DNA from: Holophaga sp.
GTDB taxonomy: Bacteria; Acidobacteriota; Holophagae; Holophagales; Holophagaceae
Assembly (NCBI GenBank): GCA_030691225.1
Contig: JAUYES010000706.1
Span: 1-10,620 of the forward strand
Reading direction: 5' to 3'
DNA length: 10,620 nucleotides
This document shows, piece after piece, positions 373-10,370 of this stretch. A program made the translations under genes and the position numbers. Position 1 is the first letter of the stretch. Each line of letters opens with the position of its first letter. The notes below the pieces were generated by a model. The model saw nothing but the letters and a program-made list of their open reading frames with translations, did no database searches and was not told the DNA's origin.

Positions 373-786
373 TCAGCATGGAGCACCAAGAGCACGCGCT
401 ACTCGCATTCCGGACCATAGGCCGTCCTCATGAAAACCGTAGCGCCAGTAAGCGCCGCAGAAGTGGACGTGATTCTGACCGCTAATTTCGGACCAGCGGG
501 ATTGGGCGGATAGGGCTTCCAGGGTGAAGCGGGGGTGGTCGTAGGTCAGTTTGCGATGCACTGCGGACTCTCTTACGTGACCTTCGGGGTTGAGGGTTAC
601 GAAGAAATCCTTACTGGTTGGAAGTGGTTGAAGGCGATTCATGTGATAGCTAAGCAGGAGATGATCAGGGGAATCCGGGAGCTCTTGATAATTCCACGAG
701 GACCAGGCACGGCGATGTTTGGGCAGAATTGATTGGTCTTCGTGCAGCCAAGTGGCGTTCCGATTCGTGCTAAAGGCGCCTAGCAC
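373..786 (-). CDS. C-terminal part of COG2907-type FAD/NAD-binding oxidoreductase, separated by an in-frame stop
   Basis: This 137-residue frame continues the reading frame of the preceding gene directly after its TAA stop, with no frame change. Its content is the expected second half of COG2907 proteins: a LPKHRRAWSSWNY segment (about residues 21-33) and FCGAYWRYGFHEDG (109-122) near the C-terminus. The two parts together give about 410 residues, close to the usual 420-440 of the family. It could be translated on its own: the GTG at 786-784 immediately follows the stop and has GGAG six bases upstream. The last 16 codons, ending in ALGAPC and TGA (375-373), lie in the tandem repeat. Either it is the second piece of a split enzyme, or the gene is a recent pseudogene or contains a sequencing error. 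Homology is certain enough; the state of the gene is open. Confidence 0.8.
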   Translation of the reverse strand: MLGAFSTNRNATWLHEDQSILPKHRRAWSSWNYQELPDSPDHLLLSYHMNRLQPLPTSKDFFVTLNPEGHVRESAVHRKLTYDHPRFTLEALSAQSRWSEISGQNHVHFCGAYWRYGFHEDGLWSGMRVARALGAPC

Positions 787-796
787 TTAGCGCTCC
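784..796 (-). promoter_or_regulatory. Ribosome binding site and stop-start junction TAAGTG
   Basis: On the minus strand the sequence reads GGAGCGCTAAGTG. The TAA ends the first half of the COG2907-like gene, the adjacent GTG can start the second half, and GGAG (796-793) is six bases before the GTG. This is what efficient termination-reinitiation would need, though a chance GGAG inside a coding sequence cannot be excluded. Confidence 0.45.
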
Positions 797-1608
797 AAGG
801 GCGTGGCGTCCCTCAGCACTTCAAGCACCTGAGGGCCCCTGCACGCAAAAATGATTTGGTCGAAAAATTGGGATTCTTCGCCCTGCACTTGGACACGTGC
901 ACCCCGGCTCTCGCGATGAACTCGAACCTCAACACCTGTGCGGATGCGTTCGTGAAAACCACGGGAAATGGGCTCGAGGTACCCTGACGTTCCGCCTGGA
1001 ATGGTGCGCCAGGGGCGTTGGGTAGTGACGCCTAACATGCCGTGGTTCTGAAAAAACCGAAGCAGGGTCAGGGCTGGAAAGTGTTCCATTTCGACCAAGG
1101 TCATGCTCCACACCGCCCCGGCCATGGGCAAGAGGTAGGCGTGGCGGAAGTCTATGGAAAAGTGATGCTGATCGAGGAAATCGGCGATGGTCATTTCTGG
1201 AACTGGGTTTTCCAAAAACGTCAGGCCTAGGGCATTAAATCTCAGAACTTCTTTCCAGAACAGCCAATACCGAGGGCGCAAAAAATTGCCACGATCCGCA
1301 AAGATGCCGTTGAGCCCCCGGCTGCACCATAGGAATTCGGATCCCTGATAGGCGAAGGACATGTCGCTGGGGCAGGTCGGTACGTTTAGTCGATCGAGAA
1401 GAGCCACGAGATTGGGATAGTTCTCGCGGTTATGAACTATGAAGCCCGTGTCGATGGGCGTTCGACCTTCCGGGGTATCCACGGTCACGGTGTGGGTGTG
1501 GCCGCCAATGCGGTTGTCCTTCTCGAACACCCACACTTCATGCTCGGGGCTCAAAAAATACGCAGCACCAAGGCCGGAAATGCCAGAACCGATGATGGCA
1601 ATTTTCAT
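787..1608 (-). CDS. N-terminal part of COG2907-type FAD/NAD-binding amine-oxidase-like protein
   Basis: This is a predicted flavoprotein of the COG2907 family, relatives of amine oxidases and desaturases. Its exact reaction is unknown, but such genes sit with DUF1365 and fatty-acid-modifying genes. The N-terminus has the Rossmann dinucleotide motif GSGISG (residues 7-12), an acidic residue near 29 at the end of the second strand, and GGHT at 35-38, a typical FAD contact. The start ATG (1608-1606) overlaps the desaturase stop as ATGA, implying translational coupling. The protein stops after 273 residues at ...DATPLER with TAA (789-787), whereas family members read straight on into VLGAF; the missing half follows in the same frame. 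One base change (for example CAA, GAA or AAA to TAA) would explain the stop. The N-terminal half alone lacks the C-terminal FAD-binding region and is unlikely to be active without the second piece. Confidence 0.85.
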   Translation of the reverse strand: MKIAIIGSGISGLGAAYFLSPEHEVWVFEKDNRIGGHTHTVTVDTPEGRTPIDTGFIVHNRENYPNLVALLDRLNVPTCPSDMSFAYQGSEFLWCSRGLNGIFADRGNFLRPRYWLFWKEVLRFNALGLTFLENPVPEMTIADFLDQHHFSIDFRHAYLLPMAGAVWSMTLVEMEHFPALTLLRFFQNHGMLGVTTQRPWRTIPGGTSGYLEPISRGFHERIRTGVEVRVHRESRGARVQVQGEESQFFDQIIFACRGPQVLEVLRDATPLER

Positions 1609-2521: not shown

Positions 2522-3154
2522 TCAGGGTTGAAAGAAACGGCGCCATCCCGTGAATCGAACGCCGCCATCGACACTGGAGAGCAGCCAGCAATCCTCATCG
2601 GCCAGGGCAACGGGTCGGTGGATCTTTTCGGCGGTGGATTCTTCGTAATCACCGGTCTCGAGAGTGCCAAATTCATCCTGCAAACCTCCGCAGAGAATCA
2701 TGGATTGCTCGGTGCCCAGATGACCATGCTCGGGGAATCGGCAATCCTTGCGCAGGTGGAGCAGCAATAATTCTGAATCTGACTGCGGCGCAGGAAGACG
2801 TAAAAAACGAAACCCTCGACTAGCGGCACCTTGCCAGTTTAGAGAAGTGAGGTTTGGCAGCAGGTTCCAGACCGAGGACGGAAGGGGCAGAATCTCGTTT
2901 CCGCAACGGGGGGCGGTAGGGGAGGGAAGGGCGCGTACCCGAGTCAAAAGGGATGCAAAAAGACCCGAAGGCACCTGCTGAGAGGGGGCTCCTTGAAGGG
3001 GGTCTTCGAGGGTGGCGGCGACTTCGGGAACCCAGATACGACAGCCTTCACAAAACGCCAGATGTGCCTCTAGCACAAGGCGAAAGGAAGGATCCAGACG
3101 ACCCAACGCGTAATCAACGAGGCGTTCAGTGGAAGGATGATGGGACGGCATCAT
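2522..3154 (-). CDS. chrR: ChrR-type zinc anti-sigma factor with C-terminal cupin domain
   Basis: This cytoplasmic anti-sigma factor holds its cognate ECF sigma factor inactive until stress such as singlet oxygen. The N-terminal zinc anti-sigma domain has His6, His31, Cys35 and Cys38 (HLAFCEGC), the same spacing and numbering as the Rhodobacter ChrR zinc site as I remember it. The C-terminal ChrR cupin has His143, His145, Glu149 (PEHGHLGTE) and His179, matching the second zinc site with a two-residue offset. The length is 210 residues, close to Rhodobacter ChrR. ATG 3154 is chosen because it overlaps the sigma factor stop as ATGA, has GGGAG (3166-3162) seven bases upstream, and gives the canonical His6; a second ATG follows directly. 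The longer frame upstream is sigma gene sequence. All metal ligands are intact, so the protein should work. Confidence 0.93.
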   Translation of the reverse strand: MMPSHHPSTERLVDYALGRLDPSFRLVLEAHLAFCEGCRIWVPEVAATLEDPLQGAPSQQVPSGLFASLLTRVRALPSPTAPRCGNEILPLPSSVWNLLPNLTSLNWQGAASRGFRFLRLPAPQSDSELLLLHLRKDCRFPEHGHLGTEQSMILCGGLQDEFGTLETGDYEESTAEKIHRPVALADEDCWLLSSVDGGVRFTGWRRFFQP

Positions 3155-3744
3155 GAGGGAACTCCCGCCTTGGGAAACGCGAGAAGGGTTCGAAGCGTGC
3201 CCAATCCGCTGCGCACTCGCGACTTCAATGTGCCGAGGGGAACGCCCAGCTGGCGAGCGGTTTCTTCGTAGGTAAGACCACCCATATAGGCAAGGCGAAT
3301 GGGTGCTTGTTGTTCCACCGGGAGCATGGAAAGAGCCTTTTGAAGACTGAGGGTATCTTCCGCATTCGTTTGAGGTTGAAGGTCCTGAACCGGCCAACGC
3401 TCCAGGTCGGGGTCAATGTCTTCCTTCGTGCTTCGGTGAGCGCGGAGAATATCGAAGACTTTATGCCGAGTGATGGTGAAAATCCAAGCCTCGGCCGATC
3501 CAGCGCCGGTGCTGAAAAGCGCGGCCTTCTGCCAGAGGGTCAAAAAAACCTCCTGGACAGCATCTTCCGCAGGGAAAGACTGGCCACCCAAGGTCCGGAC
3601 ATAGGCCAAAACGCGACCACCGAATTTTTCAAAAAGGCTCTCCAGAGCCTCTTCTTCATGGCGCGCGATCGCTTGGAGCAGGTCACTATCGGTACGGTCA
3701 TCCAGACGTTTCGCCGGTTGCGTGGTCTTGGAAGAATCCGCCAT
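3151..3744 (-). CDS. rpoE: ECF sigma-70 family factor, partner of ChrR (ECF11/RpoE type)
   Basis: This is an extracytoplasmic-function sigma factor that directs RNA polymerase to stress promoters and is held by the ChrR protein encoded next. Region 2 is seen at about residues 23-100, with DAVQEVFLTLWQ (around 61-72) and AEAWIFTITRHKVFDILR (around 83-100). Region 4 follows near 137-190, with LPVEQQAPIRLAYMGGLTYEE and the helix-turn-helix LGVPLGTLKSRVRSGL. There is no extra domain and the 197-residue length is typical. I chose ATG 3744; a TTG two codons earlier is possible, and neither has a strong ribosome site. Such sigma factors usually activate their own operon, but I could not find a convincing TGATC-type -35 with a matching -10 in the 247 bp upstream (3745-3991). 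The symbol is by analogy with the Rhodobacter RpoE-ChrR pair. Confidence 0.92.
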   Translation of the reverse strand: MADSSKTTQPAKRLDDRTDSDLLQAIARHEEEALESLFEKFGGRVLAYVRTLGGQSFPAEDAVQEVFLTLWQKAALFSTGAGSAEAWIFTITRHKVFDILRAHRSTKEDIDPDLERWPVQDLQPQTNAEDTLSLQKALSMLPVEQQAPIRLAYMGGLTYEETARQLGVPLGTLKSRVRSGLGTLRTLLAFPKAGVPS

Positions 3745-3991: not shown

Positions 3992-4954
3992 CTAGTAGAG
4001 CCTCGCGAGCAACACGGCCAGTTCGCCTTGCCGGGGTTTTTCGGTAGAGAGCAGAATTTTTTCCTGCTGGAGGATCGCGATGAGCTTGGTTGGAACCACG
4101 CTCTGATCGCCGACAATGGCCACGTGGCCTACTTTGACATCGATGACCTTCGCCCGGGGTTCCCCGTCCACCTGGACTTGGCGTTGTTCTTGTAGGGAAA
4201 AAATGTAATCCGACTTTTGGCAAGTGCCATCGGCGCGGGTTTCCAAACAGGTATTGCGCTCATCCGAGTTGATCTTGAGGTGACGGTTAACCTGGGGAAT
4301 CAATCGCCCGGGTCGAGTAATGAAATCACCGTTGTAGGTGATGTCTCTCCATTTGGCTCCAGAGACCACGCGACAAATGGGCGCAACGAGCCCGAAACTG
4401 ATGAGTCGGGCGACGGGAGAACCACAATGGTTAGCTGCGAAAATCCCGGAAAAAGGCGCAGAAATTGTGACTAGGCGAATCTGAAGGTGTGGATCGGTGA
4501 CAGCATCGGGTCGCTCCATTACCAACGCCTTGCGGGCTAGCAACCCACCTTGGCTATGCCCAATGACGGTGATTTGTTTGTTTTGCATCTTCTCGCTCAG
4601 GGCCTGAATTGCGCGCGCCAATTGCCCCGAACTGGCCATCATCTCGTCTCGATCGTTGTAGCTGAAGCCGATGGCCTGCTGACCATGGAAGGCGAAAACC
4701 TCGGCTAACGCCTGAAACCGTCCCGCAGATCCATTGCATCCATGAACAAGGATTGTCACGGGCTGATTGGAATCAAGATGAAGGGTTCGATTGGGCTCGT
4801 CCGTGCAGGGGCCAAGGCCTGGGATTTCCAAAGCCAAATCGGCTTTGGGCAGGTATTCGGAATATCGAAATGTTTTGGGAGTGGTGGCCCAGCGCTGGTT
4901 GCTGCAATTCACGGCTGCCAAAAGCAGGAATCCCCCAGCGATCCAGCGGCGCAT
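3992..4954 (-). CDS. Alpha/beta-hydrolase lipoprotein with GHSQGG motif
   Basis: This is a predicted lipid-anchored alpha/beta hydrolase of the lipase/esterase class; substrate unknown. A short positively charged start, hydrophobic stretch and AVNC lipobox give a lipidated Cys17. VHGCNG (70-75) is the oxyanion-hole region, Ser134 in GHSQGG is the nucleophile, and His277 in VGHVAI is the likely catalytic His; the acidic residue is not clear. The overall form resembles PGAP1/triacylglycerol-lipase-like proteins. ATG 4954 is chosen over an earlier in-frame start at 4981 because GGAGG (4964-4960) lies five bases upstream and the signal peptide then begins MRRW. The gene starts 16 bp after the stop of the preceding hydrolase gene, so they are probably cotranscribed. 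Several cysteines (C50, C73, C178, C194, C236, C245) suggest disulfides in an exported protein. Confidence 0.85.
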   Translation of the reverse strand: MRRWIAGGFLLLAAVNCSNQRWATTPKTFRYSEYLPKADLALEIPGLGPCTDEPNRTLHLDSNQPVTILVHGCNGSAGRFQALAEVFAFHGQQAIGFSYNDRDEMMASSGQLARAIQALSEKMQNKQITVIGHSQGGLLARKALVMERPDAVTDPHLQIRLVTISAPFSGIFAANHCGSPVARLISFGLVAPICRVVSGAKWRDITYNGDFITRPGRLIPQVNRHLKINSDERNTCLETRADGTCQKSDYIFSLQEQRQVQVDGEPRAKVIDVKVGHVAIVGDQSVVPTKLIAILQQEKILLSTEKPRQGELAVLLARLY

Positions 4955-8326: not shown

Positions 8327-8962
8327 ATGCGCCTAGTTAAACTGCTTTCTGCGACCTTGCTCACAATGGGTCCTGCAGTCTCGGCCATTGAGAAGCCCAA
8401 GCACACGGTCATCCAAACCTTTGGGGATTTCGAGCTTCGCCAAGTCCCGTCCTATCTCGTAGCGGAGACTCGGGTGGAAGGCAACCAAGGGGAGGCTGGC
8501 AACGAAGGGTTCCGGCGCCTGGCGGGCTACATCTTCGGGAAAAACCAAGGCGGGAAGAAGATGGCCATGACCGCACCCGTAACCATGGAGGCCGGTACGA
8601 AGATCGCCATGACGGCGCCTGTTCAGCAGACCCAGGCCTCTGGCGCCTACGTTGTTCAGTTCATGATGCCTTCCAGCTGGACACTCCAGACTCTTCCTCG
8701 TCCCCTGGATGAGCGAGTGGTGCTGAAGGAAATGCCACCGCGACAGATGGCGGCACTAACGTATTCGGGGATTTGGTCCGAGGCGCGCTATCAAAGCCAT
8801 TTGAACAACCTTCGCAAGGCCCTGAACCGGGAAGGCTTGAAGGCCCTGGGCGAACCCGTCTGGGCCCGCTATGACGCGCCCTGGACGCCGTGGTTCCTTC
8901 GCACTAACGAGATTCTGGTGGAGGTTGCTTCCATCGGAAGTCCGTCATCGCTGAGCCAGTAA
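8327..8962 (+). CDS. SOUL family heme-binding-like protein, exported
   Basis: This is a member of the SOUL/HBP family, small beta-barrel proteins first known from heme binding; the bacterial role is not established. The hallmark repeats are clear: KKMAMTAPV (78-86) and KIAMTAPV (92-99), followed by the C-terminal signature RYDAPWTPWFLRTNEILVEV (181-200). The first 20 residues form a signal peptide with probable cleavage after AVSA, so it works outside the cytoplasm. The 211-residue length is normal. The start ATG 8327 has only a GGGTGGG-like ribosome site. It is followed after 70 bp by the candidate outer-membrane protein gene on the same strand, perhaps cotranscribed. I see no His clearly placed for axial heme ligation, which is common in this family, so heme binding is not implied. 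Confidence 0.9.
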   Translation: MRLVKLLSATLLTMGPAVSAIEKPKHTVIQTFGDFELRQVPSYLVAETRVEGNQGEAGNEGFRRLAGYIFGKNQGGKKMAMTAPVTMEAGTKIAMTAPVQQTQASGAYVVQFMMPSSWTLQTLPRPLDERVVLKEMPPRQMAALTYSGIWSEARYQSHLNNLRKALNREGLKALGEPVWARYDAPWTPWFLRTNEILVEVASIGSPSSLSQ

Positions 8963-9827: not shown

Positions 9828-10370
9828 CTACCAGCGTTGTGGCACGCGTTCGAGTTTGCTTATGTCATAGCCCTGAGCGGCAACGAGATCGACCATGCGC
9901 TGATAGTCGCCCTCGGAAAGGGTTGGCGTGCGAGCCATGATCCAAACGTAATCACGGGCCTGGCGGCCAATGATGGTTTGACTGTAATCGTCGCTTAGGT
10001 ACACGATTCGAAAATCACTCTTGAAGGGCCAGACAAATCTCATGCCCCAAACGGCTCCAGAAGAGTCTTTGATGAAACCGCGAGGCGTGTACCTTTTGGC
10101 CTTGCCATCAAAGGCTCCGGCTCGAAAGGTGAAGGTGGTTTCGATGCTTCCATCGGAATCTTGTCGATAGGATTCGACCGCGTTATGGGCACCTTTCTCA
10201 ATAAAAGTGGGAATGTTGGCGATCACATACCAATCCCCCATGAATCGAGAAACATCTACCTTAGGTGCCAAAGTTAAGGGCGGTCGAAGCGCCTTGGTTT
10301 GGCAGCCCACCATCAATGCCGCACAGATGGAACCACCAACTGCGCACCACGTTTGAAATCGATTTTTCAT
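9828..10370 (-). CDS. blc: Outer-membrane lipoprotein lipocalin (Blc type)
   Basis: This is a bacterial lipocalin, a small eight-stranded barrel that binds lipids such as lysophospholipids or fatty acids at the envelope. The signal peptide ends in the lipobox LMVGC (Cys23). The lipocalin signature GDWYVIANIPTFIE (45-58) contains the invariant Gly-x-Trp, and YVWIMARTPTL (141-151) is the typical second signature with the conserved Arg. Length is 180 residues, as in Blc proteins. ATG 10370 is chosen since GGAG lies five bases upstream and the lipoprotein signal begins there; an upstream in-frame extension only covers the preceding gene. It begins 10 bp after the stop of the DUF6134-like gene, so the two are an operon ending at the shared terminator. 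The serine after usual outer-membrane sorting rules cannot be checked; Gln follows the Cys, so no Asp-2 retention signal is seen. Confidence 0.93.
   Translation of the reverse strand: MKNRFQTWCAVGGSICAALMVGCQTKALRPPLTLAPKVDVSRFMGDWYVIANIPTFIEKGAHNAVESYRQDSDGSIETTFTFRAGAFDGKAKRYTPRGFIKDSSGAVWGMRFVWPFKSDFRIVYLSDDYSQTIIGRQARDYVWIMARTPTLSEGDYQRMVDLVAAQGYDISKLERVPQRW

Follow-up and report, generated by a model that had tools for sequence, protein, structure and literature searches.

The locus analysed here raises the question of what a single in-frame stop codon means in a flavoprotein gene whose frame continues on both sides of it: the recent loss of a gene, an error in the consensus sequence, a natural two-chain enzyme, or a stop codon that is read through. 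The window, that is, the whole stretch of DNA analysed, is the entire contig C482 (10,620 bases) of a metagenome assembly (G000) that comprises 837 contigs and is 76% complete.

An interrupted flavoprotein gene

Positions 373–1608 on the minus strand form a single COG2907-type flavoprotein frame with one internal TAA at 789–787. In reading order, 273 residues are followed by this premature stop (codon 274), by another 137 residues and by a TGA at 375–373. Translation of the region thus confirmed an earlier note on this DNA, which had described two halves in the same frame separated by exactly one stop. The N-terminal part (787–1608, minus strand; 273 codons ending in TAA) scored above the cut-off for the Pfam domains NAD_binding_8 and Amino_oxidase, and contains the dinucleotide-binding GxGxxG motif (IGSGISGLGAA, residues 6–16). 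The C-terminal part alone (373–786, minus strand; 137 codons and the TGA) had no Pfam match. The assignment of the gene to COG2907 could be upheld on the basis of the N-terminal Pfam matches and of the finding that a single open frame spans both parts in 15 other genomes. A continuous chain of approximately 410 residues is a trait of the family, and this chain is broken here at codon 274.

The minus-strand context of the stop is TTG GAG CGC TAA GTG CTA, in which the GTG lies directly after the TAA. This GTG, the first codon of the C-terminal part, is an inherited Val codon (codon 275). A Shine–Dalgarno-like GGAG (793–796, minus strand) ends six bases before it, exactly as previously noted, and doubles as the end of the Leu codon plus the Glu codon of a conserved LER. 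In the 76%-complete genome, no second copy of the gene was found except two repeats of its last 55 bases. These belong to a 107-base tandem repeat (100–427, 3.1 copies) that overlaps the 3' end of the gene and copies approximately the last 55 bases of the gene together with downstream sequence. The same repeat array is present in the congener G002, with partly different copies. The truncated protein (P0059) belongs to a database cluster of three member sequences that come from one contig.

Relatives at the stop site

We searched 60 genomes, including the one under study, for both parts of the gene. A full-length-type match to the N-terminal part was found in 15 other genomes, and the C-terminal part lay in the same open frame in the same 15; eight further genomes had weak N-terminal matches only. 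The nearest relative, contig C228 of G002, aligned with the window over 1922 bases without a gap and contains an unbroken gene for a 411-amino-acid protein (95% identity in the N-terminal part, residues 1–273, and 94% in the C-terminal part). It has Asp in place of the stop, followed by the same GTG. The earlier note had proposed to look for the same stop in close relatives, and in G002 the gene proved to be intact.

At the protein level, 8,000 candidates were scored in a database search and the best 120 of 7,988 matches were used as relatives; after the window's own cluster had been set aside, 119 full-length proteins remained. Among these listed matches, the column of the stop was occupied by Glu (104), Ala (6), Asp (5), Gln (3) or Gly (1), and by a stop in none. 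Because Glu is the usual residue at this column, one nonsense substitution would suffice to produce the TAA. At the genome level, no interruption was observed in the best 80 of at least 577 confirmed loci, each of which was one unbroken match; it should be noted that intact genes are favoured when loci are ranked by score, and that one of the 80 is the contig of G002 itself. Close orthologues therefore lack the stop, which is one of the marks of a pseudogene.

On the basis of these results, we consider it probable that a recent nonsense substitution made a UfaD-like gene a loss-of-function allele in this genome. A fresh nonsense mutation had been listed earlier as one of several alternatives, and it proved to be the best explanation. 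The TAA at codon 274 would have arisen from an ancestral Glu codon by a single substitution, and the allele may be either fixed in the genome or a strain variant. Translation would end after 273 residues, within a helix and before the strands of the C-terminal third. In the structure predicted for the intact G002 protein (pLDDT 92.5), residue 274 lies within helix 270–276, and the C-terminal part adds strands 280–289, 305–310, 313–322 and 350–360 and helix 393–406. Because these strands and the last helix would be missing from the fold, the N-terminal part is unlikely to be active by itself. The decay of such an inactive gene would not yet be visible, and the rest of its ECF/ChrR-linked operon would still be open. 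As a further example of a recent nonsense allele, it would be of local interest.

Selective constraint on both sides of the stop

We compared the gene with that of G002 to look for signs of decay. The dN/dS ratio was 0.089 upstream and 0.083 downstream of the stop, and ten neighbouring genes had values from 0.060 to 0.230. Past the stop, neither relaxed constraint nor further lesions could be observed (dN/dS 0.083, no indel relative to G002). The neutral fraction of the window branch was at most 0.11 for the C-terminal part and at most 0.05 for the whole gene (95% Poisson bounds, with half of the divergence assigned to the window branch). A recent nonsense allele thus has no positive sign of decay on its side, as both parts are constrained alike and like their neighbours. 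Since no decay was found past the stop, the lesion should be young, or the gene may be under selection even now, and the sequence fits both equally. Missing decay is what would be expected of a very young lesion, and we infer its recency in this way. The downstream dN/dS, which the earlier note had put forward as a check, is consistent both with a lesion of very recent origin and with a gene that has kept its function. The same note had held that intact relatives together with random decay after the stop would speak against a split enzyme. The relatives are indeed intact, which argues against such an enzyme, but random decay was not seen.

The individual sense differences from G002 (n=22) were also polarised, a change being assigned when at least seven of the nine closest relatives among the matches listed agreed. 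Six had changed in the window and four in G002, with 12 left unassigned; within the C-terminal part, the numbers were three and one, respectively. In this part the window departs from its relatives at A303 (119 of 119) and R308 (105 of 119 relatives among the matches listed), which gives a weak hint of relaxation. G002 likewise departs at E394 (118 of 119 among the same matches). At columns with at least 90% conservation, departures were found at 3 of 90 and 1 of 47 positions in the window, and at 4 of 90 and 1 of 47 in G002. A surplus of unusual residues in the window was also considered and rejected, as there were barely more than in G002 (six versus four polarised changes).

Uneven divergence and the possibility of an error

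The main alternative, although an unlikely one, is an error of sequencing, assembly or strain mixture, in which case the gene would be intact in the population and the consensus base wrong or the stretch chimeric. The nonsense allele is open to this objection, as the consensus base comes from a metagenome assembly of 837 contigs and 76% completeness in which strains may have been mixed. The absence of decay on both sides of the stop would also be expected of an intact gene.

The divergence from G002 is uneven. Along the gene, dS was near zero at both ends and 0.62–0.76 in codons 150–345 round the stop. Six upstream window genes had dS values of 0.43–0.84 relative to contig C153 of G002, and four downstream operon genes, compared between contigs C168 of G000 and C228 of G002, had values of 0.10–0.28. 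The gene is a mosaic of stretches with differing identity to G002, and the identity shifts sharply near window position 1925, where C153 and C228 meet in an exact 91-base overlap of their ends. Such an exact overlap probably marks an assembly-graph junction. The overall pattern is consistent with related strains having recently exchanged the operon, or with mixed strains or misbinned contigs in the assembly, and it is because the latter fits the uneven divergence that we give an error some weight. On the other hand, comparison with G002 revealed neither indels nor other stops, either in this gene or in six genes of the window, and the premature stop lies away from the mosaic border, within a stretch of usual inter-genome divergence (dS 0.62–0.76). 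Moreover, in an older check, traces confirmed 101 of 116 pseudogene stop codons (PMC522871).

Reinitiation and readthrough

The reading put forward in the earlier note was a natural two-chain flavoenzyme: translation would terminate at the TAA and start anew at the GTG next to it, and an active enzyme would form from the two chains and FAD. Constraint does continue past the stop, and L-glutamate oxidase, which is of the same fold class, acts as several chains. In addition, the stop adjoins a GTG that has a GGAG at a suitable distance, so that both a start codon and a Shine–Dalgarno-like motif are present. Coupling at such distances works in Escherichia coli gene pairs; relative to the native overlap, a distance of +2 bases lowered reinitiation by 5, 20 and 70% in three pairs (PMC10666635). 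Reinitiation at such a distance is thus physically plausible, but nothing points to selection for it here.

We examined whether the restart context is special. Among the 119 relatives in the matches listed, the column after the stop was occupied by Val in 82 and Ile in 35. In a survey of 94 relative loci (80 plus 14, with some genomes counted twice), 24 had a start-like codon at the restart position, 39 had a GGAG-like motif 4–10 bases upstream of it, and nine intact loci had both. Within the window genes, 151 of 2972 codons had a GGAG, AGGA or GAGG ending 4–10 bases before them, as did 9 of the 206 internal ATG, GTG and TTG codons. The restart context therefore seems to result incidentally from conserved codons. 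A split at the same place as a natural feature of relatives was rejected as well. The implied starts of 47 short C-terminal relatives were scattered from about residue 174 to 350; P0044 begins at residue 275, matching the GTG here, but the other 46 start elsewhere. P0044 is a 128-amino-acid database protein with 43% identity, and its longest contig has 1010 bases.

Taken together, the two-chain reading received no specific support: its split is conserved in none of the 119 relatives among the matches listed and in none of the 80 best loci, its GTG is an ordinary Val codon whose context recurs in intact loci, and its break falls inside a helix of the G002 model. We regard it as very improbable, and equally so in the form in which a point mutation has only just split a UfaD-type flavoenzyme whose chains are both translated and assemble with FAD. 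In that form, neither part would have decayed because both chains would still function. If it were true, a natural split flavoenzyme would have been caught at birth, and one stop could suffice to yield a functional split enzyme, as start regions are already resembled by many conserved Glu-Val sites.

Readthrough or suppression of the stop to give a full-length enzyme is the least probable explanation and was rejected as the main reading: frame and constraint do run on across the stop, but TAA is an ordinary terminator in the window, where it ends the gene for a SOUL heme-binding protein at 8327–8962 (plus strand), and the stop occupies a site at which no relative examined has one (119 among the matches listed and the 80 best loci). 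A Blc-like lipocalin is encoded on the same contig at 9828–10370 (minus strand).

The operon and its state in the genus

Returning to the nonsense allele, the other genes of the operon are open, which agrees with the earlier description of an otherwise intact operon. On the minus strand, the interrupted gene is preceded by genes for an ECF sigma factor (3151–3744, by domain match), a ChrR-like anti-sigma factor (2522–3154, with zf-HC2 and Cupin_7 domains) and a fatty acid desaturase (1605–2438). The desaturase frame overlaps the next start by ATGA; its own start was set at the first ATG (Met-Glu-Phe), and the domain search took 1605–2447. Downstream, the beginning of a DUF1365 (UfaO-like) domain occupies positions 1–27 on the minus strand and is cut by the contig end (the PF07103 start at position 1896 of C228 in G002 corresponds to about window position 27). 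The remainder of this gene was found at 4618–5232 of contig C168 of G000, which alignment to C228 placed approximately 74 bases past the window start. In G002, the flavoprotein gene is followed by DUF1365, CMAS, DUF1295 and CMAS genes; C168 carries the same downstream genes without stops, its DUF1365 gene being cut by the contig end.

A DUF1365 (UfaO-like) gene directly downstream, a feature of the family, is therefore present here. Among 79 relative loci, 76 had DUF1365 directly downstream, 76 had a CMAS match and 29 had a desaturase-like match. Family and synteny make it probable that the interrupted gene is a homologue of ufaD and part of an ECF/ChrR-DUF1365-CMAS fatty-acid operon. In G002 (L056, 315–5693, plus strand), where COG2907, DUF1365, CMAS, DUF1295 and CMAS genes follow ECF, ChrR and desaturase genes, this amounts to a furan-fatty-acid-like cluster. 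The cluster in these Holophagaceae-like bacteria additionally contains a desaturase gene and has two CMAS genes.

In two of the three congeners examined, G001 and G003, neither DUF1365 nor CMAS was matched, and an intact COG2907 gene was likewise absent. G003 keeps a 49-residue C-terminal relic of the gene (contig C204; L057, 5139–5285, minus strand), just upstream of open reading frames matching the ECF/ChrR pair. Because G001 and G003 lack these genes and G003 retains a relic of the flavoprotein gene, the genus seems able to dispense with the operon. With two of three congeners already showing none of the operon but a relic, our results suggest that this Holophagaceae-like genus is losing, or switching off, a fatty-acid modification operon linked to ECF/ChrR.

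Comparison with known systems

L-glutamate oxidase belongs to the same flavin amine oxidase class; its several chains arise by a protease cut after folding and not by reinitiation. Its structure (PDB 2e1m) matched only profile positions 2–46. The best solved relative of the intact protein is the amine oxidase/cyclase LkcE (PDB 6f32 and 6f7l; sequence E-value 1.4e-51, fold TM 0.86, about 26% identity), which is one continuous chain and has another substrate. With regard to the lesion itself, 346 of 378 Salmonella pseudogenes carry a single lesion, and a premature stop accounts for 131 (PMC2916853). The gene here resembles such single-lesion pseudogenes in having one premature stop, an otherwise intact frame and intact orthologues (PMC2916853), but its stop is known from one metagenome assembly only.

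Finally, the closest functional parallel is UfaD (RSP1091) of Rhodobacter sphaeroides, an NAD/FAD-binding protein encoded beside a DUF1365 protein and linked to ChrR (PMC7380195). UfaD and the DUF1365 protein UfaO take part in furan fatty acid synthesis together with the methylase UfaM, and this synthesis is raised by deletion of chrR (PMC7380195). The likeness is one of family and synteny; the shared features are the FAD-type N-terminal part, the DUF1365 neighbour, the CMAS genes and the ECF/ChrR pair. UfaD is intact and tested, whereas the gene here is interrupted. In R. sphaeroides, ufaM lies apart from ufaD and ufaO, whereas the CMAS genes here lie within the same cluster.
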